Origin: Pseudomonas gozinkensis
GTDB lineage: Bacteria > Pseudomonadota > Gammaproteobacteria > Pseudomonadales > Pseudomonadaceae
DNA: 64,000 nt
Reading direction: 5' to 3'
NCBI RefSeq assembly: GCF_014863585.1
Contig: NZ_CP062253.1
Location: forward strand, 2,258,501 to 2,322,500
Shown: positions 40,307 to 63,644 of the stretch, piece by piece
Position numbering within the stretch: the first letter of the stretch is position 1
Layout of the letters: each line of letters opens with the position of its first letter
Position numbers and translations under genes: made by a program
The notes under the pieces: model-generated
What the model saw: the letters and a program-made list of their open reading frames with translations, nothing else
Told to the model about the DNA's origin: nothing
Database searches by the model: none

Positions 40307-40320
40307 GCGCTGTGCTCCGG

Positions 40321-41577: not shown

Positions 41578-41644
41578 TTGCCCCACTTTCGGGGCAAACC
41601 CAAGGGGCCCGGAAAAGTGGGGAATCGGGTGGGGAATATCCCCC
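41578..41644. promoter_or_regulatory. Enhancer-type sites upstream of mnxG
   Basis: An inverted repeat TTGCCCC-ACTTTC-GGGGCAA (41578-41597) is followed by a repeated GTGGGGAAT and the palindrome GGGGAATATCCCC (41631-41643). They lie about 50 to 115 bases upstream of the sigma-54 promoter, the usual distance for NtrC-type activator sites. Related CCCC-N-GGGG repeats occur at 40907-40934 and 53554-53616. Confidence 0.6.
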
Positions 41645-41693: not shown

Positions 41694-41711
41694 GTGGCAC
41701 GCGGCTTGCTC
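41694..41711 (+). promoter_or_regulatory. Sigma-54 promoter of mnxG
   Basis: TGTGGCACGCGGCTTGCTC: GG at 41696-41697, ten bases, GC at 41708-41709. It matches TGGCAC-N5-TTGC at every key base. The expected start of transcription is about 41721, 46 bases before the mnxG ATG. Mn oxidation in P. putida GB-1 is known to need a two-component system with a sigma-54-type regulator (MnxR). Confidence 0.85.
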
Positions 41712-47645: not shown

Positions 47646-47766
47646 TTGTGGGAGCTGCGGTTCGACGGTTCGACTTGCCAGCGATTGGGAGCAACTCGGT
47701 TCTGGATGGTGTGGCTGAAGCCCGCTATTGCGGGCAAGTCGAAACGTCGAACCGCAGCTCCCACAG
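47646..47766. repeat. REP-like element with 33-bp stem
   Basis: TGTGGGAGCTGCGGTTCGACG continued by GTTCGACTTGCC is followed 53 bases later by its reverse complement, with one mismatch in 33. The ends are the usual pseudomonad REP (GTGGGAGC). The 192-base gap between mnxG and the propeller gene consists almost only of this element, which may reduce transcription or protect mnxG mRNA. Confidence 0.88.
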
Positions 47767-47805
47767 GACCGAGTTGTCGGGGAAAGGTTTGTAGGGGAGA
47801 GAGGT

Positions 47806-49728: not shown

Positions 49729-49741
49729 CGAGGAAAAGACC

Positions 49742-50392
49742 ATGAACCGATTTGCATCCCGTGGCCTGCTGACCCTGTGCCTGTTGGCCGTCGGTATCCA
49801 GCAGGCCAGCGCCCACTCGGCGGACGAGCATGCCGGGCATACCGCACCGGCCGCCAACAGCCAGGAGCACGCTCAGGTCAAGTTCGCCGACGTGCCGCTG
49901 CTCGACCAGAACGGCAAGACCGTGCACCTGGAGCAGGATCTGGTGCACAACAAAATCGTCGTCATGAGTTTCATCTACACCAGTTGCACCACGGTCTGCC
50001 CGGTGGTCTCGTCGATCATGGGCAAGGTGCAGAAACAGCTCGGTGCCCGGGTCGGGACGGAAGTGCAACTGGTGTCGATCAGCATCGACCCGCAGCGCGA
50101 CGACCCGAAACGTCTGCAGGATTACGCCCGCACCTTCCAGAAGGGCCCGGGCTGGAGCTGGCTCACCGGGTCGCCGCAGTCGATCACCGCCACCCTCAAG
50201 GGCCTCGGCAGTTTCAGCGGCGACTTCAAGAATCATCAGCCATTGATCCTCGTCGGTGACGGCAACAGTCGCCACTGGACGCGTTATTACGGCTTCACCG
50301 ATCCGGCACTGCTGGCCAAAGAGGTCGAGAAACTCAGCGGCCTGCGCACCCACGCCAAACACACCGCGATTGCCATGGAGCAACAACCATGA
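49742..50392 (+). CDS. SCO1/SenC copper chaperone 1
   Basis: Two hundred and sixteen residues from the ATG at 49742 (GAGGAAAAG ahead). N-terminal signal peptide or anchor, then thioredoxin-like fold with copper-binding Cys82-T-T-V-Cys86 in FIYTSCTTVCPVVSSIM, followed by QLVSISIDPQRDDPKRLQDYA. The usual third ligand His in a VDH-type loop is replaced by VGDGNSRHW, so the His is displaced. SCO proteins deliver Cu(I) to oxidases and here probably to MnxG. The end overlaps the next SCO gene by 4 bases (ATGA). Confidence 0.93.
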   Translation: MNRFASRGLLTLCLLAVGIQQASAHSADEHAGHTAPAANSQEHAQVKFADVPLLDQNGKTVHLEQDLVHNKIVVMSFIYTSCTTVCPVVSSIMGKVQKQLGARVGTEVQLVSISIDPQRDDPKRLQDYARTFQKGPGWSWLTGSPQSITATLKGLGSFSGDFKNHQPLILVGDGNSRHWTRYYGFTDPALLAKEVEKLSGLRTHAKHTAIAMEQQP

Positions 50393-51021
50393 GAACCCTG
50401 GACTGGATCACCCTGACGGTTTGTTTCTGGATTTTCAGCGCCATGGCCCTGGCTCACGAAGGCCACGAGCAACCCGCACCGGCAACGGCCAGCGCTGCTG
50501 CGGCTCCGGCGCCGGCGAAAGGCACCCACGATGCGAAAACCTGGTTCACCGACACCCCGTTGCTCGACCAGCACGGCGACGTCCAGCGCTTCTACAGCGA
50601 TGCGCTGCACAACCGTGTGGTGCTGCTCAACGTGATCTTCACCAGTTGCAATGACGCCTGCCCGCTGATCACCCGCAAGCTCAAGGAAGTCCGCGAGCTG
50701 CTGGGCGACAAGGCCGACGGCATCACCTTCATTTCCCTTACCAGTGATCCGCTGCGCGATACGCCGGCGGTGCTCAAGGCTTACACCTTGAAGCAGGGCG
50801 CCGATGACCCTCACTGGCTTTTCCTTACCGGCGACAAGGCGCAGATGGACCTGGTGCTGGGCCGCATCGGGCAGATCGTACCGACGCCCGAGCAGCACTC
50901 GACCCAGTTGATCGTCGGCGATGTGGCCAACAAACGCTGGAGCAAAATCCGTCCCGACGCCCCGGCCGCCGCCATTGCCCAGCGCTTGCAGCTGCTGACA
51001 ATGCCCGTGGCTGGCCGCTGA
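50389..51021 (+). CDS. SCO1/SenC copper chaperone 2
   Basis: Two hundred and ten residues. The signal peptide ends at ALAHEGHEQ, an Ala/Pro-rich linker follows, then thioredoxin-like fold with Cys87-N-D-A-Cys91 in VIFTSCNDACPLITRKL. TPEQHSTQLIVGD carries a plausible ligand His. It begins in the stop codon of the first SCO gene, so expression is coupled. Two different SCO proteins suggest separate copper-loading steps for the many copper sites of MnxG, or one redox partner and one chaperone; this is inference. Confidence 0.93.
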   Translation: MRTLDWITLTVCFWIFSAMALAHEGHEQPAPATASAAAAPAPAKGTHDAKTWFTDTPLLDQHGDVQRFYSDALHNRVVLLNVIFTSCNDACPLITRKLKEVRELLGDKADGITFISLTSDPLRDTPAVLKAYTLKQGADDPHWLFLTGDKAQMDLVLGRIGQIVPTPEQHSTQLIVGDVANKRWSKIRPDAPAAAIAQRLQLLTMPVAGR

Positions 51022-51030
51022 GTCCGCGCC

Positions 51031-52581
51031 ATGAACCTCGGCCGCGTCCTCGCCCTGATCCTGCTCGCTGGCGTCAGCCTCGGCGCGGCCGCGTTGCCGC
51101 TGACCGATGAAGAAAGTGCCGGCAAGCGCCTGTACCGCGAAGGCCTGTCCGCCAGCGGCGAGCCGATCATGGCGCGGGTCGGCGCGGCGGACGTGTTGCT
51201 GCCAGCCACCAGCCTGCCGTGCGCCAACTGCCACGGCGCCGACGGCCTCGGCCGGCCCGAAGGCGGGGTGCGTCCGCCGGAGCTCAACTGGTCGCGGCTG
51301 ACCAGCATTCACGGCCAGCAACAGGTCAACGGCCGCAACTACCCGGCCTACAGCGACAGCAGTCTGGCGCGGGTGATCCAGCAGGGCCGCGACCCCGGCA
51401 ACAATCGCCTCGACCCGAGCATGCCGCGCTTCCTGCTGTCAATGAAGGATCAGCGCAATCTCACGGCGTACCTCAAGCGTCTGGCCGATGACCGCGATCC
51501 GGGGCTCGATGACCAGACCTTGCACCTGGGCACCTTGCTGCCCAGCCAGGGGCCGCTGGCCGAGGAGGGCGCAACCATCGCGGCAGTGCTCAGCGGCAGC
51601 GTTGCGCGGATCAATCAGGCCGGTGGCATTCACGGCCGGCAGTTGCGCCTGACCGTGGCCGATCCCGGCCCGGATCGCGCCAGCGCCGAACAGGCCCTGC
51701 AACGGCTGATCGAGGAAGAGAAAGTCTTCGCCCTGATCGCACCGCTGGCCCCGGCGCTGGACAGCGAACTGGCGCCGCGTCTGGAGCAGTCCGGTGTGCC
51801 GCTGATCGGGGCCCTGTCGCTGCTCGGCCCGGTGCAGGCCAGCCCGCAGATTTTCGAACCGCTGCCGGGCCTGCGCGAGCAACTGATCGCGCTGGCCGAC
51901 TACGCCACCGCCAGTTTGCGGGTGCTGCAAGGGCCAACGCTGATTGCTTATCCCGATGACCCGGCGCAAGTGCTGGCGGCGCAGACACTTGGCCGCTACC
52001 TACAGGATCACGGCTGGCAAAAAGTCCGTTTGCAGGCCTACGACCCGGCGGCGGACAGCTTGCCGCTGGGCTCGCGTTCGGTGTTTTACCTGGGCAGCGG
52101 CGGTGGTTTCAGTCGGCTGGCGACCGGATTGCAGAATGCCGGGCAGGTGCCGTACCTGTTTGCCGCATCGAGCCAGGTGGCGGGGGATTTGTTGCAGGTG
52201 CCGGAGGGTTTTTCCCGGCGGGTGTTTCTGGCGTATCCGTTCGTGCCCAGCGACTGGACCCAGGCCGGGCGCATGGCGCTGACGCTGTTGCGCGAGCATC
52301 AAGGCCTCGGCGCCCAGCACGCGGTGCTGCAAGTCGGCGCCTACGCCTCCATGCTGTTGTTCAGCGAAGGCATGAAGCAGGCCGGCCGCGACGCCAGCCG
52401 CGAAAAACTGGTGGCGGCCCTCGAAGGCCTGCACGACTTCGACACCGGCCTGACCCCGCGCCTGAGCTTCGGCCCCGGCCGACGATTGGGTCTGAGCGGG
52501 GCGCACGTGGTTACCGTTGACTTGCCCGACCAGCGTTTTTATCTGGTCGCTCCCTACAAACCGATTATTGCCACGCCCTGA
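51031..52581 (+). CDS. Cytochrome c fused to periplasmic substrate-binding domain
   Basis: Five hundred and sixteen residues, signal peptide to about residue 21. Residues about 25-155 form a c-type cytochrome domain with haem motif C64-A-N-C67-H68 (LPCANCHGADGLGRPEGGVRPPELN) and a Met in DPSMPRFLLSM as a possible sixth ligand. Residues about 160-510 are a type 1 periplasmic binding protein (Peripla_BP_6 type): LLPSQGPLAEEGATIAAVLSGSVARINQAGGIHGRQLRLTVAD. It may take electrons from Mn(II) oxidation or sense a ligand. It is 9 bases after SCO 2 in the operon. Confidence 0.88.
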   Translation: MNLGRVLALILLAGVSLGAAALPLTDEESAGKRLYREGLSASGEPIMARVGAADVLLPATSLPCANCHGADGLGRPEGGVRPPELNWSRLTSIHGQQQVNGRNYPAYSDSSLARVIQQGRDPGNNRLDPSMPRFLLSMKDQRNLTAYLKRLADDRDPGLDDQTLHLGTLLPSQGPLAEEGATIAAVLSGSVARINQAGGIHGRQLRLTVADPGPDRASAEQALQRLIEEEKVFALIAPLAPALDSELAPRLEQSGVPLIGALSLLGPVQASPQIFEPLPGLREQLIALADYATASLRVLQGPTLIAYPDDPAQVLAAQTLGRYLQDHGWQKVRLQAYDPAADSLPLGSRSVFYLGSGGGFSRLATGLQNAGQVPYLFAASSQVAGDLLQVPEGFSRRVFLAYPFVPSDWTQAGRMALTLLREHQGLGAQHAVLQVGAYASMLLFSEGMKQAGRDASREKLVAALEGLHDFDTGLTPRLSFGPGRRLGLSGAHVVTVDLPDQRFYLVAPYKPIIATP

Positions 52582-52596
52582 CCGGAGGCCCTGATC

Positions 52597-53550
52597 ATGA
52601 AGCTCAAAACCCTGTGTTGGCTGCTGACAGGCTGGTTGTCGGTGGGAGTGGCGAACAATGAACCGGTGGCCGCCCGGGTCAACGGCGAGGCGATTTCCGA
52701 GTTTCGCCTGGAGCGCTTTTTCGCCGAGTACCTGGAAGATCAGGGCCGCGCCGTGGCGAGCATCCGCAACCCCAAGGCCTATAAACAACTGCGTCAGGCC
52801 GCGCTGGATACGCTGATTGACAAGGAATTGCTCTGGCAGGAATCGCGCAAGCGCGGGGTGAAAATCGATGCGCAAGCCGTGCGCGAACAGGTCGAACAGA
52901 CCCGCACCGCCATCGGCGGCACCGATAAATTTCTCCAGCGTTTGCAGGACGCCGGTTTCGACGAGGCCTCGTTCACCGAGTACACCCACCGCGAACTGGC
53001 GGCGCAGCGGATGTTCGCCGAGCTGACTAACGTCCAGGCTCCGGACGAGCAAGCGGTGCGTACGTTTTTTGAAGAACACCGCGCTGAAATGGGCGCGCCG
53101 GAGCAGGTCCGGGCCCGGCACATTCTGATCAAGGTTGCCGGCGATGCCGATGCCGCCACAGTTGAAGCGGCACGGCTACGCTTGGAGGAGTTGCGCACGG
53201 CTATCGCAGGGGGGCAAACCTTTGCTAGCGTCGCCCAATCGGGATCGGAAGATGTCACCGCCAGCCAGGGCGGGGACCTGGGGTATTTCGCCCGTGGACA
53301 GATGGTGCCGGCCTTTGAAGCGGCGGCGTTTGCCCTCAAGCCTGGCGAAGTCAGCACGGCGGTGCGCACACCGTTCGGCTGGCATTTGATTTTTGTCGAG
53401 AACCACAAGGAGGCGGCCGATGTCCCAGAGGAGCAAGGGCTGGAAACAGTCAGGGCATACCTCGCCCGACAGCAACAGACCCAGGCTCGTCGTCAGGTGC
53501 TCGCGCAGTTACGGGCAGAGAACAGGATCGAACGAATTGACGACGACTGA
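52597..53550 (+). CDS. Periplasmic parvulin-type peptidyl-prolyl isomerase
   Basis: Three hundred and seventeen residues; signal-like N-terminus (MKLKTLCWLLTGWLSVGVA), SurA-like N-terminal helices (about 25-165), and a PpiC/rotamase domain (about 168-265; RARHILIKVAGDADAATVEAARLRLEEL...SEDVTASQGGDLGYFARGQMVPAFEAAAFALKPGEVSTAVRTPFGWHLIFVE). It would help fold exported proteins, here presumably the huge MnxG before secretion by the nearby system. Last gene of the mnxG-side operon; 15 bases after the cytochrome gene. Confidence 0.94.
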   Translation: MKLKTLCWLLTGWLSVGVANNEPVAARVNGEAISEFRLERFFAEYLEDQGRAVASIRNPKAYKQLRQAALDTLIDKELLWQESRKRGVKIDAQAVREQVEQTRTAIGGTDKFLQRLQDAGFDEASFTEYTHRELAAQRMFAELTNVQAPDEQAVRTFFEEHRAEMGAPEQVRARHILIKVAGDADAATVEAARLRLEELRTAIAGGQTFASVAQSGSEDVTASQGGDLGYFARGQMVPAFEAAAFALKPGEVSTAVRTPFGWHLIFVENHKEAADVPEEQGLETVRAYLARQQQTQARRQVLAQLRAENRIERIDDD

Positions 53551-53553
53551 AGG

Positions 53554-53616
53554 TTCCCCCCCAATAGTGGGGAATGGCTTCGATGCCCATTCAGGTGCTT
53601 CCCCGTTTCTGGGGAA
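53554..53616. promoter_or_regulatory. Paired C/G-tract inverted repeats before the secretion operon
   Basis: TTCCCCCCCAATAGTGGGGAA (53554-53574, given here as arms TTCCCC and GGGGAA) and TTCCCC-GTTTCT-GGGGAA (53599-53616) are inverted repeats related to those upstream of mnxG. They lie 156 to 218 bases before the response regulator start. A promoter of sigma-54 type is not certain here: GG at 53679 is followed by GC one base too far. Confidence 0.55.
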
Positions 53617-53771
53617 CGGGGTGCCGGGACGAGCGGGCATTTCCATTCAATTCAAGGACATGAAGACAAAAAATTACCGGCACTTAGCCTGGCATGAAGT
53701 GTGCGTTACCTCTTGTGAGGCGCACTCCAGCGGGTTCAGTTTTCGGACTGGCGGGTTTCAAGGAGTTCACC

Positions 53772-54305
53772 TTGGTTAACAAAGTACTGGTTGTCGAAGA
53801 CGAACAGCTGCTTGCACAGAACCTTCAGGATTATCTGTCGGCGCAAGGGCTGGAAGTCCGGATTGCACATGACGGCGCAGAAGGAATCGGCCTGGCCGAG
53901 ACTTTCGCCCCCGACGTGCTGGTGTTCGATTACCGCTTGCCCGATATGGAAGGGTTCGAGGTGCTCGACGCGGTTCGCCAGAACAGGACGTGTCATTTCG
54001 TGCTGATAACGGGTCACCCGACCGCTGAAGTCTGTGAGCGGGCGCGGCAACTGGGGGTCAGTCACATCCTGTTCAAACCGTTTCCACTGGCGGAACTGGC
54101 CCGAGCTGTCTGCGACCTTCTGGGGATCCAGCGCGAAGCGAAACCCGGTGCGAGCCCATCCGAAGGCTTTGTCGAACGACGCCAGAGCAGGACCGAGAGC
54201 TTCCCGTTGCAGTTGTACGATGGCAGTTGGGTGCTGGCGGACCGCCGACGAAACCGGTCGGAGGCCATGGCACCGGACGACGATCAAATGCTCACCGGGG
54301 AGTAA
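53772..54305 (+). CDS. Orphan CheY-like response regulator (TTG start)
   Basis: Predicted 177 residues. AAGGAG at 53760-53765 stands 6 bases before TTG 53772 and the REC domain starts right there (VNKVLVVEDEQ), so TTG is preferred over the ATG at 53694. REC domain about 1-122: acidic pair E9/D10, phosphoacceptor Asp53 (LVFDYRLPDMEG), switch Thr in VLITGHPT, Lys in ILFKPFP. The remaining 55 residues are polar and carry no DNA-binding domain. No histidine kinase is next to it. Being the first gene before gspE (84-base gap), it probably regulates secretion or Mn oxidation by protein contact. Confidence 0.88.
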   Translation: MVNKVLVVEDEQLLAQNLQDYLSAQGLEVRIAHDGAEGIGLAETFAPDVLVFDYRLPDMEGFEVLDAVRQNRTCHFVLITGHPTAEVCERARQLGVSHILFKPFPLAELARAVCDLLGIQREAKPGASPSEGFVERRQSRTESFPLQLYDGSWVLADRRRNRSEAMAPDDDQMLTGE

Positions 54306-54388
54306 TGGCGCGATAGACGTTCCGGCACTCGCCGAATTCGCCTCCCGCGCCGTCAGGGCCTCAAGCCCCGGGTGTTGGAGAGCAAGCC

Positions 54389-56110
54389 ATGGATCGTCTG
54401 TCCGTTGTCGTCGAACCGCTGTCGGTCAATCCTCCACAGGAGGCGCAGACCCCGCCACGCTTTTCCAGTGAGCAACTGGCCCAGGCCCGGGCACGGGCCA
54501 CCACGTCCGGGGAACGGGTGCTCGATGCGCTGGCCGTGCTGTGCGAGCTGGCGCCGATGCCGTTCATTGCCAGTCTCGGCGCTACCCTGCATTACCCGGT
54601 GCTCGACACCGACACGCTGTTTCTGGCGACCCCGGTGTTCGACCGGGTCACCCTCGCGCAATGCCTCAAACGTGAATTCATCCTGCTGCGCCACAACGAC
54701 GAAGTCATCGGCGTGTTCGCCGACCCCTTCGACACGTCGCGTCTGGCCTGGATCGACGAATGCCTGCACGGCGCGCCGCTGTATCTGGTGCACGCCGATG
54801 ACCTCAAGGCCTACCTGGCCCGCCACGAAGAAAGCTTCCACGCGGTGGAATCGCTCAACGCCCAGGCCGACGCCGGCAGCGAGACCGACACCCTGCAAAG
54901 CCTGTCGCTGACCAGCATCAGCGAAGACTCGAGCGTGGTGGTGAAACTGGTCAACTCGACCCTGTACGACGCGCTGAAAATGCACGCCAGCGACATCCAC
55001 CTTGGCACCACTGGTCAGGGCCTGGTGATCAAGTACCGGATCGACGGCGTGCTGAACAACATCGGCAAGATCCAGGGCAGCGAGTTCGCCGAGCAGGTGA
55101 TCTCGCGGGTCAAGGTCATGGCCGAGCTGGACATCGGCGAAAAACGCGTACCGCAGGACGGTCGCTTCAAGATCGGTATCAGTGGCCGGCAGATCGACTT
55201 CCGGGTGTCGATCATGCCGAGCATCTTCGGCGAAGACGCGGTGCTGCGGGTGCTGGACAAACAGGACCTGGCCGACAAGGTCTGCGGCGTGCAACTGCAA
55301 GCGCTGGGCTTTGAAGACGAAACCCTGCGTCAACTGCGCCGTCTGGCTGCCGAACCCTACGGCATGGTGCTGGTGACCGGCCCCACCGGCAGCGGCAAGA
55401 CCACCACGCTGTACGCGATGATCACCGAGATCAATCACGGCGTGGACAAGATCATCACCATCGAAGACCCGGTGGAATATCAGTTGCCCGGGGTGCTGCA
55501 AATCCCGGTCAACGAGAAAAAAGGCCTGACCTTCGCCCGCGGCCTGCGTTCGATCCTGCGTCACGACCCGGACAAGATCATGGTCGGCGAGATCCGCGAC
55601 CCGGACACCGCCCAGATCGCCGTGCAATCGGCGCTCACCGGTCACCTCGTATTCACCACCATCCACGCCAACAACGTGTTCGACGTGATCGGTCGTTTTA
55701 CCCAAATGGAAATCGACCCCTACAGCCTGGTCTCGGCGCTCAACGCGATCCTCGCCCAGCGTCTGATCCGGCTGGTGTGCAGCAGTTGCAGCACACCGGT
55801 CAACCCGAGCGATGAAGAGCTGCGCGCTTCGGGCCTCGACCCACAGAAAGTCGATCACTACCACTTTGTCCACGGCAAGGGCTGCGGCCACTGCCGGGGC
55901 AGCGGCTATCGCGGCCGCACGGCGATTGCCGAGCTGCTGCACCTGGACGACGAACTGCGCCAGATGATCGTAGAGCGCCAACCCATCACCCAGATCAAAG
56001 CCCTGGCCTGCGCCCGTGGTTTGCGCCTGTTGCGCGAATCGGCGCTGGAGCTGGTGGAGCACGGTCGGACCACGCTGGAGGAGATCAATCGTGTCACTTT
56101 TATCGCGTGA
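54389..56110 (+). CDS. gspE: Type II secretion assembly ATPase GspE
   Basis: Five hundred and seventy-three residues. N-terminal GspE/MshE N domain (about 30-150), then the hexameric ATPase with Walker A GPTGSGKTT (331-339), Asp box IEDPVEYQLPG, Walker B KIMVGEIRD (396-404) and His box AVQSALTGHLVFTTIHAN. The tetracysteine zinc site is C464-x2-C467 and C499-x2-C502. It powers pseudopilus growth with GspF. GGAG precedes the ATG. The 3' end overlaps the next gene by 20 bases. Confidence 0.97.
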   Translation: MDRLSVVVEPLSVNPPQEAQTPPRFSSEQLAQARARATTSGERVLDALAVLCELAPMPFIASLGATLHYPVLDTDTLFLATPVFDRVTLAQCLKREFILLRHNDEVIGVFADPFDTSRLAWIDECLHGAPLYLVHADDLKAYLARHEESFHAVESLNAQADAGSETDTLQSLSLTSISEDSSVVVKLVNSTLYDALKMHASDIHLGTTGQGLVIKYRIDGVLNNIGKIQGSEFAEQVISRVKVMAELDIGEKRVPQDGRFKIGISGRQIDFRVSIMPSIFGEDAVLRVLDKQDLADKVCGVQLQALGFEDETLRQLRRLAAEPYGMVLVTGPTGSGKTTTLYAMITEINHGVDKIITIEDPVEYQLPGVLQIPVNEKKGLTFARGLRSILRHDPDKIMVGEIRDPDTAQIAVQSALTGHLVFTTIHANNVFDVIGRFTQMEIDPYSLVSALNAILAQRLIRLVCSSCSTPVNPSDEELRASGLDPQKVDHYHFVHGKGCGHCRGSGYRGRTAIAELLHLDDELRQMIVERQPITQIKALACARGLRLLRESALELVEHGRTTLEEINRVTFIA

Positions 56111-56894
56111 TCAATTTATCGCCGTGCTCGGCGCCAGCGGTGTCGGCCTCGGCCAGCGCCGGGGCAGCGACACCCTGTGGCTGGGCAGCGTCGGCTACAT
56201 CGACGAAGGCTTCCAGAGCTACGCGGTGGCGCTGGACACCCTCGACCGTCTGCTCGGCGAACACACCCGCGCTGGTGCCGAGCTGAGCGTGGTGATCTCC
56301 GGCCACTTCAGCCGCTTCTGCCTGGTGCCATGGAGCGAGCAGATCAGCAGCCCTGACGAACTGCGCGGCTTCGCCCAACTGTGCTTCGAAGACCTGTTCG
56401 GCGCCCCGACCCAACCGTGGAGCCTGGTGCTGTCGGCCGAGCCCGCCGGGCATGACCGGATTGCCAGTGCCTTGCCACAGGATTTGCTGGAACGCCTGCG
56501 CACGCTGGTCACGGGTCGCGGTCTGCGCCTGCGTTCGGTGCAGCCGTACCTGATGACCGCGTTCAACCGCTTCGACAAAAGCCTCGATGCCGGCGACTTC
56601 CTGTTCATCGTCGCCGAACCGCAACGCAGCGTGTTGCTGCTGGCAAGGGAAGGGCGCTGGTCGTCGGTGCGTTCGGTGGGCGGCAGCGACAGCGACGCGG
56701 CACTCAGCGCATTGATCGGTCGCGAACGGCAACTGCAAGCCTCCACCAGCGAACGCGCCTTCAACGTTTATCTGCACGCTCCGGCGCGCCTCGATGCGCA
56801 ACCGGATGTGGCGGGCGTGCACCTGCGCACCCTCGAAGACAACTCGATGACCGTGCGTGACGCCTTGTACGTCATGTCCCGGGCGGTGGCCTGA
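56091..56894 (+). CDS. PilM/GspL-like actin-fold protein (GTG start)
   Basis: Predicted 267-268 residues from the GTG at 56091, chosen because GGAGGAG (56077-56083) lies 7 bases upstream and the frame upstream is only shadow of gspE. The sequence resembles MshI/PilM-type cytoplasmic components (VSLLSRDQFIAVLGASGVGLGQRRGSDTLWLGSV...GYIDEGFQSYAVALDTLDRLLG), with an ASHA-like ATPase layout but little motif conservation. It would link the ATPase GspE to the inner-membrane PilN/O-like pair. Overlaps gspE by 20 bases. Confidence 0.8.
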   Translation: MSLLSRDQFIAVLGASGVGLGQRRGSDTLWLGSVGYIDEGFQSYAVALDTLDRLLGEHTRAGAELSVVISGHFSRFCLVPWSEQISSPDELRGFAQLCFEDLFGAPTQPWSLVLSAEPAGHDRIASALPQDLLERLRTLVTGRGLRLRSVQPYLMTAFNRFDKSLDAGDFLFIVAEPQRSVLLLAREGRWSSVRSVGGSDSDAALSALIGRERQLQASTSERAFNVYLHAPARLDAQPDVAGVHLRTLEDNSMTVRDALYVMSRAVA

Positions 56895-56895
56895 C

Positions 56896-57441
56896 ATGCG
56901 CGCCTTGAACCTCGACTTCCAGCCTCGTCCGCGTTCCGGTCCATTGGGCTGGAGCCTGCTCGGCGGCGGTGTGTTGCTCGCGCTGGTGTGCTTCGGCGTG
57001 CAGCAGCACCTCGGCGAGCAGGCCGAGCAACAGCAAGGTCACTTGCAGCACACCCAACGCCAGCTCACCGGCGACAGCGGCGCCAAGACAACGCTGAGCC
57101 CGGCGGAAACCCGCGAGCAGGCGCAGAACCTCGCCGAAATGCGCAAGGTCTCGCAGCAACTGCGCCGCCCCTGGGAACGCCTGTTCGCCATGCTCGAAGC
57201 CATGCCGCGCGACGACATCGCCTTGCTGACGCTGACCCCGGATGCACGCAAGGGCCAGGTACGGATCAGCGCCGAAGCCCGTGATCTGCAAGCGATGCTG
57301 GATTTTCACAAACGGCTGGAGGCCAGTGACGAGCTGTCCGACGTGTCGCTGCTGAGCCACGAAATCGTCGTCAAATCGCCGGAGCAACCGGTGCAATTCA
57401 ATCTGTCGGCGACCTGGGAGATAGGCGATGCGAATCCCTAG
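56896..57441 (+). CDS. PilN/GspL-C-like membrane protein
   Basis: Predicted 181 residues from the ATG at 56896, one base after the previous stop. A short cytoplasmic start (MRALNLDFQPRPRSGPLG) with the PilN-like NLL pattern, one membrane helix (WSLLGGGVLLALVCFGVQ), a coiled coil (about 45-95) and a ferredoxin-like C-terminal domain. It should dimerise with the following PilO-like protein to form the inner-membrane platform. Overlaps the next gene by 14 bases. Confidence 0.85.
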   Translation: MRALNLDFQPRPRSGPLGWSLLGGGVLLALVCFGVQQHLGEQAEQQQGHLQHTQRQLTGDSGAKTTLSPAETREQAQNLAEMRKVSQQLRRPWERLFAMLEAMPRDDIALLTLTPDARKGQVRISAEARDLQAMLDFHKRLEASDELSDVSLLSHEIVVKSPEQPVQFNLSATWEIGDANP

Positions 57442-57976
57442 ACTGATCGTTCACGAATACCTGCAAGGCCTCGGCGTACCGGGCCTGGCCGGTCTGGCGC
57501 TGCTGCTGGTCACGCTGGCCTGGGCACTCGGCGGTTTGCTGCCGGGCTGGCAGTCGCTGCAACAGCTCAGCCAACAAACCCAGGAAGCCACCGAATACCT
57601 GGCCAAGGTCGAGGACGGCAGCATCGCGCCGCCCGTGGTGCCGCAACGTCAGCTCGATGATTTTCGCAACAAGCTGCCGGCCCAGCCGCAAGCCACCGTC
57701 GCCATCGACCGCATCTACGCCCTGGCCGCGCAAGAGCACATCACCCTGGCGCGCGGCGAATACGCCCTCGGTGTCGATCCCAAGACCCATCTGGCGCGCT
57801 ACCAGATCCTGTTGCCGGTGCGTGGCAGCTACCCGCAACTGCGCCGCTTCCTGCACGCCTTGCTCGGCCAGTTGCCGGCGGTGGTGGTGGAAGACGTCGA
57901 GTTTCAACGCAAGAAGATTGCCGACACCGACCTCAGCGGCCGGATCCGTATGACCCTCTACCTGTCGAGGTCGTGA
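57428..57976 (+). CDS. PilO/GspM-like membrane protein
   Basis: One hundred and eighty-two residues: one N-terminal helix (LAGLALLLVTLAWALGGLLPGW), coiled coil, and a C-terminal ferredoxin-like domain (YQILLPVRGSYPQLRRFLHALLGQLPAVVVEDVEFQR), the standard PilO layout. It pairs with the PilN-like protein. It overlaps both neighbours (14 bases before, 1 base after), so the operon is tightly coupled. Confidence 0.87.
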   Translation: MRIPRLIVHEYLQGLGVPGLAGLALLLVTLAWALGGLLPGWQSLQQLSQQTQEATEYLAKVEDGSIAPPVVPQRQLDDFRNKLPAQPQATVAIDRIYALAAQEHITLARGEYALGVDPKTHLARYQILLPVRGSYPQLRRFLHALLGQLPAVVVEDVEFQRKKIADTDLSGRIRMTLYLSRS

Positions 57977-58494
57977 TGGACACCAAACGCATAACCGGCT
58001 GGGTGGCCTTCTTCGGCGTGGCGGCGGCGCTGGCCTGGTTGCCGGAATATTTCTCGCCGAGCGACGAAGCGGATTCGACCGAGGTTGCCGTGGCCAGCCC
58101 GGCGAAAGCCACCGCCCGTGGCGCGTTGCCCGCCAGCAGCGCCAAGGCCAATGCGGCGCCGATCAAGGACCTGAGCCCGGCCGGCGACCTGTTTGCGAGC
58201 AAATCCTGGAAGGCCGCGCCAACCCTGGCGACGGTCACCGAACAAGCGATCAACCCGACCCCGGTGGTGCAAGCCCCGAGCCTGCCACCGGTGCCGTTCC
58301 AGTTCGTCGGCAGGCTGCATGACCGCAGCGACCTGCAGGTGTTCTTGCAGGACGGCGAGAAAATCTACGTCGTGCGCAGCGGGGATGTGATCGACGACAC
58401 CTGGAAGATTGCGGCGATTTCCGATGTGGAACTGAGCCTGGTCTACCTGCCTTTGCATTTGTCGCAGACCTTGTCTGTGGGGAGTACGCAATGA
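57976..58494 (+). CDS. GspC/PilP-like periplasmic linker
   Basis: One hundred and seventy-two residues from the ATG at 57976. One N-terminal membrane helix (VAFFGVAAALAWLPEYF), an Ala/Ser/Pro-rich periplasmic stretch, then an HR-like beta domain (VPFQFVGRLHDRSDLQVFLQDGEKIYVVRSGDVIDDTWKIAAI), as in GspC and PilP. It connects the inner-membrane platform with the secretin. It overlaps the secretin gene by 4 bases (ATGA). Confidence 0.87.
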   Translation: MDTKRITGWVAFFGVAAALAWLPEYFSPSDEADSTEVAVASPAKATARGALPASSAKANAAPIKDLSPAGDLFASKSWKAAPTLATVTEQAINPTPVVQAPSLPPVPFQFVGRLHDRSDLQVFLQDGEKIYVVRSGDVIDDTWKIAAISDVELSLVYLPLHLSQTLSVGSTQ

Positions 58495-60338
58495 ACAGAT
58501 CCCGTTTGCTGATGAGCCTCGGCCTGTGTGCCGGGCTGGCCGCGTGCAGTTCCGCGCAGGTCGCCAACAAGGAAGCCGCCGACCTGATCGATCAGGGGCA
58601 GTACGAGGCGGGCCTGGCCCGGATCGAGGAAGGCTTGCGGGAAAACCCGCGCGACACCGAGCTGCACCTGCTGCTCAACAGCGGTCGCGCCAAGGCAATC
58701 ACCGCGCTGCTGACCTCCGGCGACACCGACCGCGCCCGCCGCGATTTCGCTTCGGCCCGCACCGCCTACAGCCGGGTGCTGACCATCGAGCCGAACAACC
58801 GTCGCGCCCAGGATGCCCTGCGCCAGCTCGACTACCTGCGCAGCATGGACGAGAAGCTGGAACTGGCCCGTGGCGACCTGCGCCGGGGCGATATCTACGG
58901 TGCCGACCGCCAGGTCAAACAGATCCTCGAACTCGACCCGAAAAACGATGGCGCGCTGGAACTGCAAGGCAACATCCGTCTGGTGCAGAGCCGCAACGTG
59001 GTCCAGTACCCGCAACTGCGCACCCGGCTTGATCGTCCGGTGACCCTGGAGTTTCGTGACGCCAACCTCAAGACCATTTTCGAAGTGCTGTCGCAGGTCG
59101 CCGGCCTCAATTTCATCTTCGACAAGGACCTGCGCCCGGACATGAAAGCCACGATCTTCGTGCGTGACGTGCGCATCGAAGACGCCGTGCAACTGCTGCT
59201 GCAACAGAATCAGCTGCACCAGAAAGTGGTGAACGAAAACACCTTGCTGATCTTTCCGGACTCGCCGCAGAAGCTCAAGGATTACCAAGAGCTGGTGATG
59301 CGCACCTTCTACCTGACCAGCATCGACGCCAACACCGCGCTGAACATGATCAAGACCATGCTCAAGACCCGCGACGTGTTCGTCGACGAACGCCTGAACA
59401 CCCTGACCATGCGCGACACCGAAGACGCCGTGCGCATGGCCGAGAAACTGCTGCAATCGCAAGACCAGTCCAACCCCGAAGTGGTGCTGGAAGTGGAAGT
59501 GATGGAAGTCGCCACCCAGCGGATTCTCGATCTGGGCCTGCAATGGCCGAACACCTTCGGCGTGGTCAACAGTGACGGTTCGGCGGTGACCATTCTCGAT
59601 CAACTGAAAGGCATCAACTCCAGCCGGATTTCTATCACCCCATCGCCGCAAGCCAAGATCAATGCCCAGGACAACGACATCAACACTCTGGCCAGCCCGG
59701 TGATCCGCGTCAGCAACCGCGAACAGGCGCGCATCCACATCGGTCAGCGCGTGCCGATCATCAGCGCCACGTCGGTGCCGTCGACCCAGGGCCCGGTGAT
59801 CACCGAAAGCGTCACCTACCTCGACGTCGGTCTGAAGCTCGAAGTGCAACCGACCGTGCATCTGAACAACGAAGTGGCGATCAAGATTGCCCTGGAAGTG
59901 AGTAACGCCACGCCGCTGGAGCCGACTCGCCAGGGGACGATTCCGGTGCAGGTCGATACCCGCAACGCCCAGACTTCACTGCGCCTGCATGACGGCGAAA
60001 CCCAGATCCTCGCCGGCCTGATGCGCAACGACCACGGCGCCACCGGCAACAAGATTCCGGGCCTCGGCGACATTCCCGGTCTGGGCCGGTTGTTCGGCAG
60101 CAACAAGGACACCATCGGCAAATCGGAACTGGTGCTCTCGATCACCCCTCGGATCGTGCGCAACCTGCCGTACCAGAGCCCGTCTGACATGGAATTCCCG
60201 ACCGGTACCGAAACCAGCATGCACATCCAGGCGCCGGACCGTTCGCAAACCTACTCGATGCCAGCGCCTGCCGCGCAGCCTCGTGCAGTCGGTGAAGCGG
60301 CCGTGGCAACCACTCACGTTACCGTCGAGAAGCCTTGA
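58491..60338 (+). CDS. gspD: Secretin, lipoprotein with N-terminal TPR region
   Basis: Six hundred and fifteen residues. Lipobox LAAC with Cys19, a TPR-like helical region (about 25-165; DLIDQGQYEAGLARIEEGLRENP, ARTAYSRVLTIEPNN, ADRQVKQILELDP), STN/N-type domains (about 175-330), and the secretin core with VPIISATSVPSTQGPV and the signature VTYLDVGLKLEVQPTVHLNNEVAIKIALEVS. Near the end is GETQILAGLMRNDHGATGNKIPGLGDIPGLGRLFGS. It forms the outer-membrane channel. The lipid anchor and TPRs may replace a separate pilotin. The architecture is closer to MshL/BfpB-like secretins than to classical GspD. Confidence 0.94.
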   Translation: MNRSRLLMSLGLCAGLAACSSAQVANKEAADLIDQGQYEAGLARIEEGLRENPRDTELHLLLNSGRAKAITALLTSGDTDRARRDFASARTAYSRVLTIEPNNRRAQDALRQLDYLRSMDEKLELARGDLRRGDIYGADRQVKQILELDPKNDGALELQGNIRLVQSRNVVQYPQLRTRLDRPVTLEFRDANLKTIFEVLSQVAGLNFIFDKDLRPDMKATIFVRDVRIEDAVQLLLQQNQLHQKVVNENTLLIFPDSPQKLKDYQELVMRTFYLTSIDANTALNMIKTMLKTRDVFVDERLNTLTMRDTEDAVRMAEKLLQSQDQSNPEVVLEVEVMEVATQRILDLGLQWPNTFGVVNSDGSAVTILDQLKGINSSRISITPSPQAKINAQDNDINTLASPVIRVSNREQARIHIGQRVPIISATSVPSTQGPVITESVTYLDVGLKLEVQPTVHLNNEVAIKIALEVSNATPLEPTRQGTIPVQVDTRNAQTSLRLHDGETQILAGLMRNDHGATGNKIPGLGDIPGLGRLFGSNKDTIGKSELVLSITPRIVRNLPYQSPSDMEFPTGTETSMHIQAPDRSQTYSMPAPAAQPRAVGEAAVATTHVTVEKP

Positions 60339-60340
60339 TC

Positions 60341-60814
60341 ATGAACGCCTCCCAGCGCGGTTTTACCTTGATCGAAGTCGTGGTGACGCTGGCCCTGATC
60401 GGCCTGCTGGCCGGCATGGCCGCGCCGCTGACCGAGACCCTGGTACGGCGTGGCAAGGAGCAGGAACTGCGCACCGCGCTGTATCAGATTCGCGATGGCA
60501 TCGACGCCTACAAGCGTGCCTTCGATGCCGGCTACATCGAGAAATCCCTGAACAGCAGCGGCTATCCGCCGAACCTGAAAGTGCTGGTCGAAGGCGTGCG
60601 CGACGTGCGCAGCGCCAAGGGTGCGAAGTTCTACTTTCTGCGCCGGATACCGCGGGATCCGCTGGTGCCGGCCAAGCGTGACGACAACGGCGGTTGGGGC
60701 CTGCGGGCCTACAACAGTTCGGCCCAGAACCCGCGCGATGGCGAGGACGTGTTCGACGTCTACTCCCACGCCAGGGGCCGTGGCCTCAACGGCATCGCGT
60801 ACCGCGAGTGGTGA
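60341..60814 (+). CDS. Pseudopilin 2
   Basis: One hundred and fifty-seven residues from the ATG at 60341 (TTG 60335 is an alternative). Prepilin site SQRG/FTLIEVVVTLALIGLLAGMAAPLTE with Glu +5, a GspG-like globular part (GYPPNLKVLVEGV, IPRDPLVP, DVFDVYSHARGRGLNGIAYREW). It joins the pseudopilus. It abuts pseudopilin 3 (5-base gap). Confidence 0.92.
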   Translation: MNASQRGFTLIEVVVTLALIGLLAGMAAPLTETLVRRGKEQELRTALYQIRDGIDAYKRAFDAGYIEKSLNSSGYPPNLKVLVEGVRDVRSAKGAKFYFLRRIPRDPLVPAKRDDNGGWGLRAYNSSAQNPRDGEDVFDVYSHARGRGLNGIAYREW

Positions 60815-60819
60815 TTCTC

Positions 60820-61194
60820 ATGCGCCGGGAAAAGGGTTTTACCTTGCTCGAGCTGATGGTGGTGATGGCGATCATCGCGACCCTTATGACCATCGCCTTG
60901 CCGCGCTACTTCAACAGTCTCGAGGCCTCGAAAGAGACCACGTTGCACCAGAGCCTGTCGGCCATGCGCGAGGCGCTGGATCACTACTACGGCGACACCG
61001 GGCGCTACCCCGATTCCATCGAACAACTGGTGGAGATGCGTTACCTGCGCAATGCGCCGCTGGACCCGATCACCGAACGCAATGATCAATGGGTGCTGAT
61101 CGCACCGCCGGACGGCGTGGCGGGCGGCGTTGCCGACATCAAGAGCGGAGCTACCGGGAGGGCGCGTGATGGCAGCCAGTATTCCGAGTGGTAA
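60820..61194 (+). CDS. Pseudopilin 3
   Basis: Predicted 124 residues from the ATG at 60820; a GTG at 60811 that overlaps the previous stop is possible. Prepilin site REKG/FTLLELMVVMAIIATLMTIALPRYF with Glu +5, then RYPDSIEQLVEMRYLRNAPLDPITERNDQWVLIAPPDG, a GspG-like pattern. End sequence DGSQYSEW. It overlaps the next gene by 26 bases. Confidence 0.92.
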   Translation: MRREKGFTLLELMVVMAIIATLMTIALPRYFNSLEASKETTLHQSLSAMREALDHYYGDTGRYPDSIEQLVEMRYLRNAPLDPITERNDQWVLIAPPDGVAGGVADIKSGATGRARDGSQYSEW

Positions 61195-61720
61195 GCACGT
61201 GGAGCAGGGTGGGTTCACCTACCTGGGCGTGCTGTTCCTGATCGTGATCATGGGCATGGGCCTGGCCAGTGCCGGCGAGTTGTGGTCGACCGTGTCGCGC
61301 CGCGATCGCGAGAAGCAACTGCTGTGGGTCGGCACCCAGTACGCCCAGGCGCTGCGCAGCTACTACCGCAGTTCGCCGGGCCTGGCGCAGTACCCGAAAG
61401 AACTGGTCGACCTGCTGCAGGACGAACGTTTTCCGGAAGCCCGTCACCATCTGCGCCAGCTCTATCCGGACCCGATCGGCGGCGGCGAATGGGCACTGCA
61501 ACGGGGTTTCGACGGACGCATCACCGGCATCAACAGTGCCTCCACCGAGTTGCCGTTGAAGCAGGCGGACTTCCCGTCGCAGTGGTCGGATTTCGAAGGC
61601 ATGCAGCGTTATTCGGACTGGCAGTTCGTGGCTGAAAAAGCCTTTCTCGATGGCACCGGCCCTGGCAACGGGGCCCCGGTCAAAGGCCAGTCGGCACTGC
61701 CGCAGGCGTTGCAGCCATGA
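61169..61720 (+). CDS. Pseudopilin 4, minor type without Glu +5
   Basis: One hundred and eighty-three residues from the ATG at 61169 (GGGAGGGCG ahead). The prepilin-like site EQGG/FTYLGVLFLIVIMGMGLASAGELWS has Gly in place of Glu at +5, as in GspK, which caps the pseudopilus tip. The globular part (DREKQLLWVGTQYAQALRSYY, QYPKELVDLLQDERFP, RQLYPDPIGGGEWALQRG) is typical of PulG-like proteins in MSHA-type operons. Its stop overlaps the csgE start by 4 bases. Confidence 0.9.
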   Translation: MAASIPSGKHVEQGGFTYLGVLFLIVIMGMGLASAGELWSTVSRRDREKQLLWVGTQYAQALRSYYRSSPGLAQYPKELVDLLQDERFPEARHHLRQLYPDPIGGGEWALQRGFDGRITGINSASTELPLKQADFPSQWSDFEGMQRYSDWQFVAEKAFLDGTGPGNGAPVKGQSALPQALQP

Positions 61721-62109
61721 GCCGCCACGTGTGGTGCGCGTTGATCCTCGCGGCCGTGGCGTCTTTCGCCAGCGCCAGCGAGGAAGACGAAATGATGGGC
61801 TTCATCGTCGACGACACGATCTCGCACATCGGCCACGACTTTTACTACTCGTTCAGCGAACGCCTGCGCGACACCAGCCGCATGGATTTCAACCTGGTGG
61901 TGCGCGAGCGCCCCGACGCGCGCTGGGGGAGCCTGGTGACCGTCGAGTATCAACAACGCCTGGTGTATCGGCGCTTCCTGCCGCCGAACACCGTGGAACT
62001 GAAGGACGAGGCCTACGAGGCCGCCGACTCGGTTCGACTGGAGGTCGTCCGGCGCAAGCTGGAAGCCCTGTTGCAGGACACCACCGACCTTGAGAAGGAC
62101 GAACTATGA
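61717..62109 (+). CDS. csgE: Curli export specificity factor CsgE
   Basis: One hundred and thirty residues; signal peptide to about FASA (residue 21). The mature part GFIVDDTISHIGHDFYYSFSERLRDTSRMDFNLVVRERPDARWGSLVTVEYQQRLVYRRFLPP is characteristic of CsgE, the periplasmic adaptor that caps the CsgG channel and selects substrates. It begins in the stop codon of pseudopilin 4 (ATGA), so it is translated as part of the secretion operon. Confidence 0.95.
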   Translation: MSRHVWCALILAAVASFASASEEDEMMGFIVDDTISHIGHDFYYSFSERLRDTSRMDFNLVVRERPDARWGSLVTVEYQQRLVYRRFLPPNTVELKDEAYEAADSVRLEVVRRKLEALLQDTTDLEKDEL

Positions 62110-62537
62110 ACACGACAACGTTCTCACGGCGCAGCGGATTCTGGATCTCGGGGTTGTTGATCGGGCTTGCCAGCGCCGCTGCCGTCCAGGCCACCGAACT
62201 GGTCTACACGCCGGTCAACCCGTCGTTCGGCGGCAACCCGCTCAACGGCACCTGGCTGCTCAACAACGCCCAGGCGCAAAACGACCACGACGATCCGGAT
62301 CTCAAGAAGCGTTCGACGGTGGCCGGTACGTCGGCACTCGAACGCTTCACCAGTCAATTGCAGTCGAGGTTGCTGGGGCAACTGCTGGACAACATCTCCA
62401 CCGGCAACACGGGGAGCCTGTCCACCGACGCTTTTATCGTCAACGTCGTTGATGACTCGGAGGCCCTCACGATTGAAGTGACGGACCGAGCGAGCGGCGA
62501 AGTTTCCGAAATTCAGGTGAACGGCCTCAACCCATGA
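62106..62537 (+). CDS. csgF: Curli assembly factor CsgF
   Basis: One hundred and forty-three residues; signal peptide to about AVQA (residue 28). TELVYTPVNPSFGGNPLNGTWLLNNAQAQN is the CsgF hallmark, the segment that inserts in the CsgG pore, followed by RFTSQLQSRLLGQLLDNI and a C-terminal beta segment. CsgF anchors the nucleator at the cell surface in E. coli. It overlaps csgE by 4 bases. No csgB-type nucleator is present in this window. Confidence 0.95.
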   Translation: MNTTTFSRRSGFWISGLLIGLASAAAVQATELVYTPVNPSFGGNPLNGTWLLNNAQAQNDHDDPDLKKRSTVAGTSALERFTSQLQSRLLGQLLDNISTGNTGSLSTDAFIVNVVDDSEALTIEVTDRASGEVSEIQVNGLNP

Positions 62538-62566
62538 CGGGATGACGGTTCCGGGGAGCGATGGAC

Positions 62567-63427
62567 ATGAAAAAAATAATTGCGCTAGGGCTGATGTTGG
62601 CAGCATTACAAGGGTGCAGTCTGCGCGAGCCGATGCCGGCCGAGCAGGACACCGATACCCCGACCCTGACCCCCAGGGCCTCGACCTACTACGACTTGCT
62701 GAAAATGCCGCGACCCAAGGGCCGGCTGATGGCGGTGGTGTACGGCTTCCGTGACCAGACCGGGCAGTACAAACCGACGCCGGCCAGTTCCTTTTCCACC
62801 AGCGTCACCCAGGGCGCGGCGTCGATGCTGATGGACGCGATGCAGGCCAGCGGCTGGTTTGTGGTGCTCGAACGCGAGGGGCTGCAGAACCTGCTGACTG
62901 AACGCAAGATCATTCGGGCTTCGCAGAAGAAGCCCAATACGCCGGTGAACATTCAGGGCGAGCTGCCACCGCTGCAGGCGGCGAACATGATGCTCGAGGG
63001 CGGGATCATCGCTTACGACACCAACGTGCGCAGCGGTGGGGAAGGAGCGCGGTATCTGGGGATCGATCTGTCCCGCGAGTATCGGGTTGACCAGGTTACT
63101 GTGAATTTGCGGGCGGTGGATGTGCGTAGCGGGCAGGTGTTGGCGAATGTGATGACCAGCAAGACGATTTATTCGGTAGCGCGCAGCGCGGGGATTTTCA
63201 AGTTTATCGAGTTCAAGAAGTTGCTTGAGGCTGAGGTCGGGTATACGACTAATGAGCCGGCCCAGTTGTGTGTGTTGTCGGCGATCGAGGCGGCGGTGGG
63301 GCATATGGTGGCGCAGGGGATTGAGCGGCATCTTTGGCAGGTGGCGGGGGATGCTTCTACGCCTGGGCAGGATGATGTCTTGAACCGGTACCTGACTCAG
63401 AACAAGGTTGATCCGGAGGCCGAGTGA
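62567..63427 (+). CDS. csgG: Curli secretion channel CsgG
   Basis: Predicted 286 residues from the ATG at 62567, because GGGGAG is 8 bases upstream; ATG 62561 is only 2 bases from it. Lipobox LQGC with Cys about residue 17. Pattern PRASTYYDLLKMPRPKGRLMAVVYGFRDQTGQYKPTPASSFSTSVTQGAASMLMDAMQASGWFVVLEREGLQNLLTERKIIR and GARYLGIDLSREYRVDQVTVNLRAVDVRSGQVL is that of the nonameric outer-membrane channel. The 5' half of the gene has normal pseudomonad codon use; the 3' half uses more TTG/GCG-rich codons. No gene follows it. Confidence 0.96.
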   Translation: MKKIIALGLMLAALQGCSLREPMPAEQDTDTPTLTPRASTYYDLLKMPRPKGRLMAVVYGFRDQTGQYKPTPASSFSTSVTQGAASMLMDAMQASGWFVVLEREGLQNLLTERKIIRASQKKPNTPVNIQGELPPLQAANMMLEGGIIAYDTNVRSGGEGARYLGIDLSREYRVDQVTVNLRAVDVRSGQVLANVMTSKTIYSVARSAGIFKFIEFKKLLEAEVGYTTNEPAQLCVLSAIEAAVGHMVAQGIERHLWQVAGDASTPGQDDVLNRYLTQNKVDPEAE

Positions 63428-63479
63428 ACTTGGCGGCCTTTGGGCCGACCAGGTTCTGGTTGATGTATCCGGTTCAAAT

Positions 63480-63577: not shown

Positions 63578-63644
63578 CCCGGTCAGTCGATGGGGGGCTT
63601 TCTGGCTGGGTACATATCCATTTCTGCGGTAACGGCTGCTTAGG

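Follow-up and report, generated by a model that had tools for sequence, protein, structure and literature searches.

A type II secretion operon that ends in the curli export genes beside mnxG in Pseudomonas gozinkensis, and its probable common control with the curlins

Results

A type II secretion operon runs on into csgE, csgF and csgG

The 64,000 nucleotides of Pseudomonas gozinkensis analysed here (contig NZ_CP062253.1, G000:C1:2258501-2322500; hereafter the window, with the coordinates of its parts counted from its start) hold an operon in which the genes of a type II secretion system (T2SS) run on into the curli export genes csgE, csgF and csgG, next to the manganese oxidase gene mnxG. 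By gene calling and Pfam the operon spans about 53772 to 63427 on the + strand, in the order receiver-only response regulator, GspE-type ATPase, proteins in the PilM, PilN, PilO and PilP positions, secretin, three pseudopilin genes, csgE, csgF and csgG. The response regulator is likely the first operon gene (53772..54305; PF00072, 3.1e-22; the TTG start is our choice); it is followed by the ATPase (54389..56110; PF00437, T2SSE, 1.3e-124), a PilM/GspL-position protein without a Pfam match that is present in 94/95 of the loci surveyed below (56079..56894, start approximate), a PilN-like protein (frame 56893..57441, start approximate; PF05137, 1.3e-5), a PilO/GspM-like protein (57428..57976; PF10741, 1e-5), a PilP/GspC-position protein, likewise without a Pfam match and present in 95/95 loci (57976..58494), and the secretin (58491..60338; PF00263, 3.8e-39). 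Two pseudopilin genes (60341..60814, PF07963, N_methyl, 7.2e-9; and 60820..61194, PF07963, 3.1e-10) precede an atypical fourth one (61169..61720), whose stop overlaps the start of csgE; its product has no match in Pfam or NCBIfam, has homologues in 5 genomes of other genera, and is called a pseudopilin on the strength of its N-terminal sequence, position and homologues. The operon closes with csgE (61717..62109; PF10627, 6.5e-36; solved CsgE 2na4, 1.3e-13), csgF (62106..62537; PF10614, 2.5e-31) and csgG (62561..63427; PF03783, 6e-80; solved CsgG chains, 1.5e-81), so that CsgE, CsgF and CsgG were all detected. The Pfam matches for these three, and for T2SSE, Secretin and N_methyl, are over the curated cut-offs, and CsgG starts with a lipoprotein-type signal (LQGC, by eye).

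The T2SS is split. A GspF-type inner-membrane protein (39119..40306, - strand, start read at 40306; PF00482, 4.3e-57) and, directly upstream of it, a GspG-type major pseudopilin (40321..40749, - strand; PF08334, 3.9e-44; PF07963, 1.2e-9) form a separate pair (39119-40749) on the opposite strand, 13 kb from gspE, which an earlier interpretation made from the letters alone (the sequence-only reading) had omitted. With this pair, the secretin, the GspE-type ATPase, GspF, GspG and further pseudopilins were all detected by Pfam. The best NCBIfam match of the ATPase is GspE, at 492.6 bits under a cut-off of 630, and that of the secretin is GspD, at 155.6 bits under a cut-off of 351; since both score below the cut-offs for standard T2SS parts, the system is atypical, and it is of the Xcm type of P. 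putida GB-1. We take the GspF and GspG genes to be xcmS-like and xcmT1-like, respectively, and the three pseudopilin genes at 60341, 60820 and 61169 to be xcmT2-like, xcmT3-like and xcmX-like. The window csgG is the sole copy in the genome, and its product scores 294.9 bits against the NCBIfam CsgG equivalog, under the cut-off of 505.

Between the gspG-gspF pair and the T2SS-csg operon sits a six-gene operon that begins with mnxG (41767..47613, + strand), encoding a multicopper Mn(II) oxidase. The sequence-only reading had named a manganese oxidase here, and the product matches the NCBIfam MnxG equivalog (NF041487) at 3916 bits against a cut-off of 3100, with no Pfam match at 1e-4. The rest of this operon (47728..53550, + strand) encodes a YVTN beta-propeller protein, two SCO1/SenC proteins, a substrate-binding/cytochrome c protein and a SurA-like protein, and the same six-gene order is tabulated for P. 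putida GB-1, DSV-1 and MS-1 (PMC11409713, Table 4).

The sequence-only reading had also placed the start of csgE within the stop codon that ends the fourth pseudopilin gene, with csgF overlapping csgE in the same way, and reading the letters directly bears this out: ATGA at 61717-61720 contains the csgE ATG (61717-61719) and the pseudopilin TGA (61718-61720), and the csgF ATG (62106-62108) runs into the csgE stop, which ends at 62109. The csgG ATG, at 62561, lies 23 bases 3' of the csgF stop. The pseudopilin/csgE overlap (-4) recurs in 87/95 loci and the csgE/csgF overlap (-4) in 93/95; the other eight pseudopilin/csgE spacings, computed with a mechanical start choice, are +4, +4, +10, +11, +14, -10, -82 and -124. 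Judged across these loci, conservation of the overlap is more than chance would be expected to leave. A promoter or terminator that would separate the fourth pseudopilin gene from csgE was considered and rejected, a consensus scan of the + strand from 58046 to 63647 having found neither a sigma70-like promoter nor a terminator-like site. By their overlaps, the lack of an internal terminator-like site in that scan and the conserved order, csgEFG are part of the T2SS operon, as had been proposed.

The curlin genes lie just beyond the window

No curlin gene lies in the window, as the sequence-only reading had noted; all 14 PF07012 matches in the genome (E up to 10) fall between contig positions 2324519 and 2326311 on the minus strand. 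They belong to csgA (2324513-2325964, minus strand; 483 amino acids; PF07012, 7.9e-24) and csgB (2325991-2326455, minus strand; 154 amino acids; PF07012, 5.8e-22), both uninterrupted and both with signal-peptide-like starts (by eye). The 3' (near) end of csgA is 2,013 bases beyond the window end. Searching the genome for curlin repeats, a check that the sequence-only reading had suggested, therefore turned up an intact csgB-csgA pair directly downstream, in substance the arrangement it had named as able to explain csgEFG. The csgBA genes are convergent with csgEFG and form a separate operon. Among 20 genomes drawn from the 49 loci that have csgA near, csgBA are the last two genes of a block, big448-big757-csgB-csgA, in 20/20 (in G042, csgA falls outside the later fetched stretch and its place was taken from the earlier fetched locus). 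The two large proteins of this block (L010:7058-10674, - strand), one of 757 amino acids with immunoglobulin (Ig)- and cadherin-like domains and one of 448 amino acids without a Pfam match, are possible curli partners foreign to the E. coli system. Their genes overlap by 4 bases and stand directly before csgB-csgA in 20/20 genomes.

On the 3' side of csgBA here lie a histidine kinase, an mcoA-like multicopper oxidase, an SCO1 protein, a second kinase and a sigma54-activating response regulator, the oxidase and SCO1 being enclosed by the two kinases (L010 12666 to L041 5579). The regulator carries PF00158 (1.5e-64) with PF00072, both kinases are of the HisKA/HATPase type, and the first kinase was within the fetched stretch after csgBA in 14/20 genomes. 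From protein type, and from the order mnxS1, mcoA, SCO1, mnxS2, mnxR reported in DSV-1 and MS-1 (PMC11409713), we call these genes mnxS1-, mnxS2- and mnxR-like.

The T2SS-csgEFG unit, the curlins and mnxG occur together

Across 298 congeneric Pseudomonas genomes, CsgE and curlin repeats were each found in 102, and these are the same 102 genomes (agreement in 298/298). mnxG, called at E at most 1e-100, was found in 95/298 genomes, all of them inside the CsgE/curlin set, and in 0/196 of the others; Fisher's value for this co-occurrence is not readable as a probability, as the genomes share ancestry. Up to 19 kb were fetched around each of the 106 CsgE matches. A T2SS lies directly upstream in 95/106 of these loci, one per mnxG genome, so that the unit accompanies mnxG in 95/95 mnxG genomes (in G136 as a remnant), as the sequence-only reading would have it. 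Gene order, which it had proposed to compare among mnxG-containing genomes, is complete from GspE through the pseudopilins to csgEFG in 93/95 loci, the exceptions being G076 (short contig) and G136 (a deletion, of which the CsgE match is a remnant). In 85/95 genomes mnxG itself is on the same strand, no more than 25 kb upstream; in 2 it is far away and in 8 on another contig. In one mnxG genome the gene is split: at G234:C11:146118-151933, mnxG matches lie in two separate frames that meet near residue 1185.

At the other 11/106 CsgE loci the csg cluster stands alone: its curlins share its strand and no T2SS match was obtained. These loci belong to seven mnxG-less genomes and, as second copies, to G042, G060, G086 and G150. 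At one of them (L142, G086:C4), a second mnxG copy (76% identity) adjoins the csg cluster on the opposite strand.

Named loci were taken as the best 80 of 165 candidates by the fourth pseudopilin, all titled Pseudomonas and several duplicating genomes of the survey; the closest are from P. pharyngis, P. paraglycinae, P. sputi and P. koreensis. csgE, csgF and csgG follow the pseudopilin in 72 of these best 80; of the 8 without, one (L214) is the deletion seen in G136 and another (L240) breaks off 239 bases past the pseudopilin.

Some lineages without mnxG and curli keep the T2SS

An orthologue of the Xcm secretin is present in 101 genomes (at least 72% identity; two partial at contig ends), and 12 further genomes have only a sister secretin of 33-36%. 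CsgE, curlins and mnxG are all missing from 6 of the 101, namely G021, G162, G222 (a genome only 73% complete), G231, G245 and G276. The loci of G021, G231, G245 and G276 are much alike and may go back to one event; in G162, csgE (65-106) and csgG (247-282) fragments persist after the pseudopilin gene, and its deletion is therefore a separate event. At least two lineages are thus without mnxG, csgEFG and curlins yet keep the T2SS. G136 (L147, also L214) is of another kind, a natural strain without curli export and with the Mn oxidase gene, in which a deletion runs from csgE residue 69 into csgA; it retains most of csgB.

mnxG, the T2SS-csgEFG operon and the csgBA operon have a similar promoter design

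Upstream of all three units we find what looks like a common, and apparently new, promoter design, a sigma54-like site preceded by a CCCC-N6-GGGG box. Before mnxG, the box lies at 41581..41594 and a sigma54 -24/-12 site, TGGCACGCGGCTTGCT (41695..41710, + strand), 72 bp upstream of the gene; the site is a perfect TGGCAYR-N4-TTGCW and the only 0-mismatch match in 95 kb. In 21 other mnxG copies (20 genomes) the site is perfect in 20 and has one mismatch in 1, with the box within 350 bp in 16/21. Before the T2SS-csg operon lie two boxes (53559 and 53601; 53559..53614) and the sigma54-like site TGGCATGAAGTGTGCG (53690..53705, + strand), which departs from the consensus at one position in 33 and at two in 61 of the 94 loci (shuffle control, 7/94 with 2 mismatches); the box is there in 94/94 loci, at least twice in 92 and mostly 80-150 bp upstream of the site, vs. 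30/1,060 random 350-bp windows. For the csgBA operon, all 20 of 20 genomes have, 69-95 bp upstream of big448, a site with no more than 2 mismatches (shuffles, 0/20), and 17/20 have a box. In the stand-alone csg loci, the box was found in 0/11 within 400 bp of any csg gene match, and the best sigma54-like sites have 2-5 mismatches. A sigma54 promoter directly before csgB was considered as well and rejected, 43 loci resembling their shuffles there; the signal sits before big448.

The 14-base box by itself is not rare (4 in 95 kb vs. a Markov expectation of 3.2), and its position and conservation therefore carry the argument. The longer pattern CCCCN6GGGGAA has 7 matches in the 6.56-Mb genome (reversed control pattern, 2 and 1), and three of these seven fall at the T2SS-csg promoter, where there are two boxes, one of which matches on both strands. 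Over the 1,954 kb of the 106 loci, 94 loci have modules of box plus sigma54 site at the T2SS-csg promoter, 187 in all. Fifteen more modules lie elsewhere: 12 are on the opposite strand in the same intergenic region (6 loci), 1 is at the csgBA-operon promoter of L147 and 2 are chance-like. The motif is kept in csg-less L148 (G276), L150 (G245) and L152 (G162), as it is in the named csg-less loci L238, L241, L242, L245, L246 and L249, which were examined at the locus only. Published work reports that the mnxG and mcoA promoters of GB-1 are Mn-dependent with predicted IHF and sigma54 sites (PMC11930936), and that an rpoN insertion in MS-1, a relative, abolishes Mn oxidation (PMC11409713).

Relatives of the T2SS and a further neighbour

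Class-wide scans covered 228 other genomes drawn from the class, with about 1.5 kb seen on each side of a match. Xcm-like (three-pseudopilin) clusters occur in 5/228, all of other genera and none with CsgE; 3/228 have CsgE, with no T2SS gene within about 1.5 kb. In other Pseudomonas, a sister T2SS (L156-L159) resembles that of the window in its three pseudopilins, including an xcmX-like one, followed in the sister by gspG, gspF, gspE and a secretin; it differs in the secretin, which is 31-36% identical to the window's, and in what follows the xcmX-like gene, which is a gene for a lytic polysaccharide monooxygenase (LPMO) instead of csgE. This LPMO gene (LPMO_10, GbpA_2) stands directly 3' of the xcmX-like pseudopilin gene in 4/4 sister loci (L156:1777-3339, L157, L158 and L159). 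By loose analogy, the slot after the xcmX-like pseudopilin may tend to hold cargo-related genes.

Beside gspF lies the gene for a Gly-rich protein with a repeated GDDHGVHRAGEI motif (38389..39039, - strand), a signal-peptide-like start and no Pfam match. It is kept beside GspF in loci L148, L150 and L151, which have neither mnxG nor csgEFG. That it is a further T2SS client is speculative.

Discussion

Two machines, probably under joint control

From the observed gene content, overlaps, conservation, co-occurrence and common promoter motifs, we infer MnxG as the client of the T2SS, the curlins as that of CsgG, MnxR as a common activator and curli as a Mn oxide matrix. We think it likely that the locus encodes two machines, a T2SS (probably for MnxG) and an ordinary curli exporter, that are jointly controlled, probably by MnxR with sigma54. 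MnxS and MnxR would be activated by Mn and stationary phase, and MnxR with sigma54 would then switch on mnxG, the T2SS-csgEFG operon and, in most relatives examined at least, the csgBA operon. A folded client would cross the outer membrane via the T2SS, most likely MnxG, as its linkage and the title of the Xcm study and the papers citing it suggest; CsgG with CsgE and CsgF would export CsgA and CsgB, whose genes lie on the other strand 2-4 kb beyond the window; and the overlapping codons would hold csgEFG in step with the T2SS, with Mn oxide perhaps forming at the surface of the amyloid or inside it.

Several observations weigh against this reading. In 10/95 genomes mnxG is distant or sits on a different contig, and the counts exaggerate the strength of the evidence, since the genomes come from a single genus and are related. 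The T2SS persists in genomes without mnxG and csg, and may therefore have another client. G136 keeps an open mnxG frame despite the loss of part of csgE, of csgF and csgG and of most of csgA. The csgBA-operon site of P. gozinkensis reads TGGTATGGAAGTTGTA, with 2 mismatches and without the -12 GC, and this promoter may therefore be weak or lost here; the -12 GC is also missing in G096 and G206, and is kept in 18/20 relatives. Two-mismatch sigma54 matches are common (116/1,060 random windows; at most 2 mismatches in 26/95 coding stretches before csgE), so that a two-mismatch site alone is weak evidence. The promoter of the xcmT1-like gene was not counted: sites with at most 2 mismatches are found in 20/20 genomes, the -24 GG is missing from 19/20 of them, and an N6 box is present in 6/20. 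Finally, that the CCCC-N6-GGGG box is an MnxR site is our guess.

Other accounts of the locus fare less well against the same evidence. The sequence-only reading had suggested that CsgG and its partners CsgE and CsgF form one part of a two-part machine, the T2SS being the other, and export some substrate of the Mn system other than curlin (the Gly-rich protein at 38389-39039 would be an example); the placing of csgEFG in the T2SS operon, apart from csgBA, and the secreted-looking repeat protein beside gspF speak for it. We reject this substrate and consider the account most improbable, with intact csgBA 2 kb past the window, one CsgG in the genome and identical distributions of CsgE and curlins (concordant in 298/298 genomes; curlins in 102/102 CsgE genomes and 0/196 others); moreover, the Gly-rich protein persists in csgEFG-less L148, L150 and L151, and MnxG is a large copper enzyme, whereas CsgG transports unfolded chains. 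A single joint T2SS-CsgG machine fits no better, since the Xcm secretin occurs without CsgE in 6/101 genomes that have the secretin, the three-pseudopilin cluster without CsgE in 5 genomes of other genera, and CsgE without this T2SS at 11/106 loci. It is also very unlikely, in our judgement, that the T2SS carries the curli-associated protein of 757 or 448 amino acids, so that T2SS and curli would build one surface structure with MnxG a mere neighbour. The conservation of the big448-big757-csgB-csgA block in 20/20 genomes, the Ig- and cadherin-like domains of big757 and the LPMO, itself a plausible T2SS client, that 4/4 sister loci encode after the homologous pseudopilin would suit such a client; yet 6 genomes have the T2SS secretin and no curlins, and the title of the 2003 study discussed below gives the Mn-oxidising factor as what the Gsp-related pathway exports.

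A positional accident, with csgEFG captured at the end of a T2SS operon, held there by the overlaps and without a functional or regulatory tie to Mn oxidation, is unlikely, if more credible. Xcm-like pseudopilin clusters without csg in 5 other-genus genomes, the existence of stand-alone csg clusters and G136, which kept mnxG and lost the curli export genes, are what one would then expect; against this stand the separate csgBA operon, which bears the promoter design of mnxG, the joint absence of mnxG, csgEFG and curlins from six secretin-keeping genomes, including two clearly different loci (the G162 and G276 types), and the co-occurrence in 95/95.

Beyond joint control of a T2SS and a curli exporter, a bolder proposal, to which we give somewhat less than an even chance, is that curli here are a dedicated Mn-mineralisation amyloid: a single Mn-responsive MnxS/R-sigma54 programme would cover the oxidase, the T2SS, the curli exporter and the curlins, oxide would be deposited on a purpose-made amyloid, and lineages that abandon Mn oxidation would abandon curli. 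The observation as first read is largely explained, as a known atypical T2SS adjoining a normal curli system, and it bears on two long-standing questions, the reason for bacterial manganese oxidation and the role of curli outside enterobacteria. Should curli be made solely together with the Mn oxidase, through Mn-responsive sigma54 control, the amyloid becomes a candidate for the scaffold of the oxide mineral, and genomes that have neither curli nor Mn oxidase become a natural experiment.

Comparison with known systems

A 2003 study by de Vrind et al. (Mol Microbiol 47:993) describes, by its title, a Gsp-related (Xcm) pathway that exports the Mn-oxidising factor of P. putida, and its abstract reportedly places xcmT2, xcmT3 and xcmX beside the csg homologues csmE, csmF and csmG in GB-1; the T2SS-csgEFG arrangement is thus most likely already in print. 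A later paper names the Xcm cluster of GB-1 and KT2440 and finds it also in WCS358 (PMC4509608), the existence of the cluster in GB-1 and KT2440 being all that the citing papers confirm there (PMC4509608, PMC10925705). In two others, csgEFG and csgAB are given as two clusters in P. putida (PMC3056050), and csgD is noted not to be near the csg genes of Pseudomonas, P. stutzeri excepted (PMC3521004). Joint control of curli and Mn oxidation was not found stated in a search of the open-access literature, which is weak evidence of novelty.

Like the Xcm system of GB-1 and KT2440, the T2SS of the window is atypical and has its gspG-gspF pair apart from the main cluster, a split that we take to hold in GB-1. 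Unlike GB-1, P. gozinkensis belongs to a different Pseudomonas group, and gspG-gspF, mnxG, csgBA and the mnxS/R-like genes here all lie within about 42 kb, whereas mnxG and mnxS1 of GB-1 are 72 gene ids apart (PMC11409713, Table 4). With E. coli curli (type VIII secretion) the locus shares CsgE, CsgF and CsgG and two curlins with PF07012 repeats; it differs in that csgEFG stand in a T2SS operon, csgBA behind the genes for two large proteins, CsgG under the NCBIfam CsgG cut-off, and the whole likely under sigma54 control.

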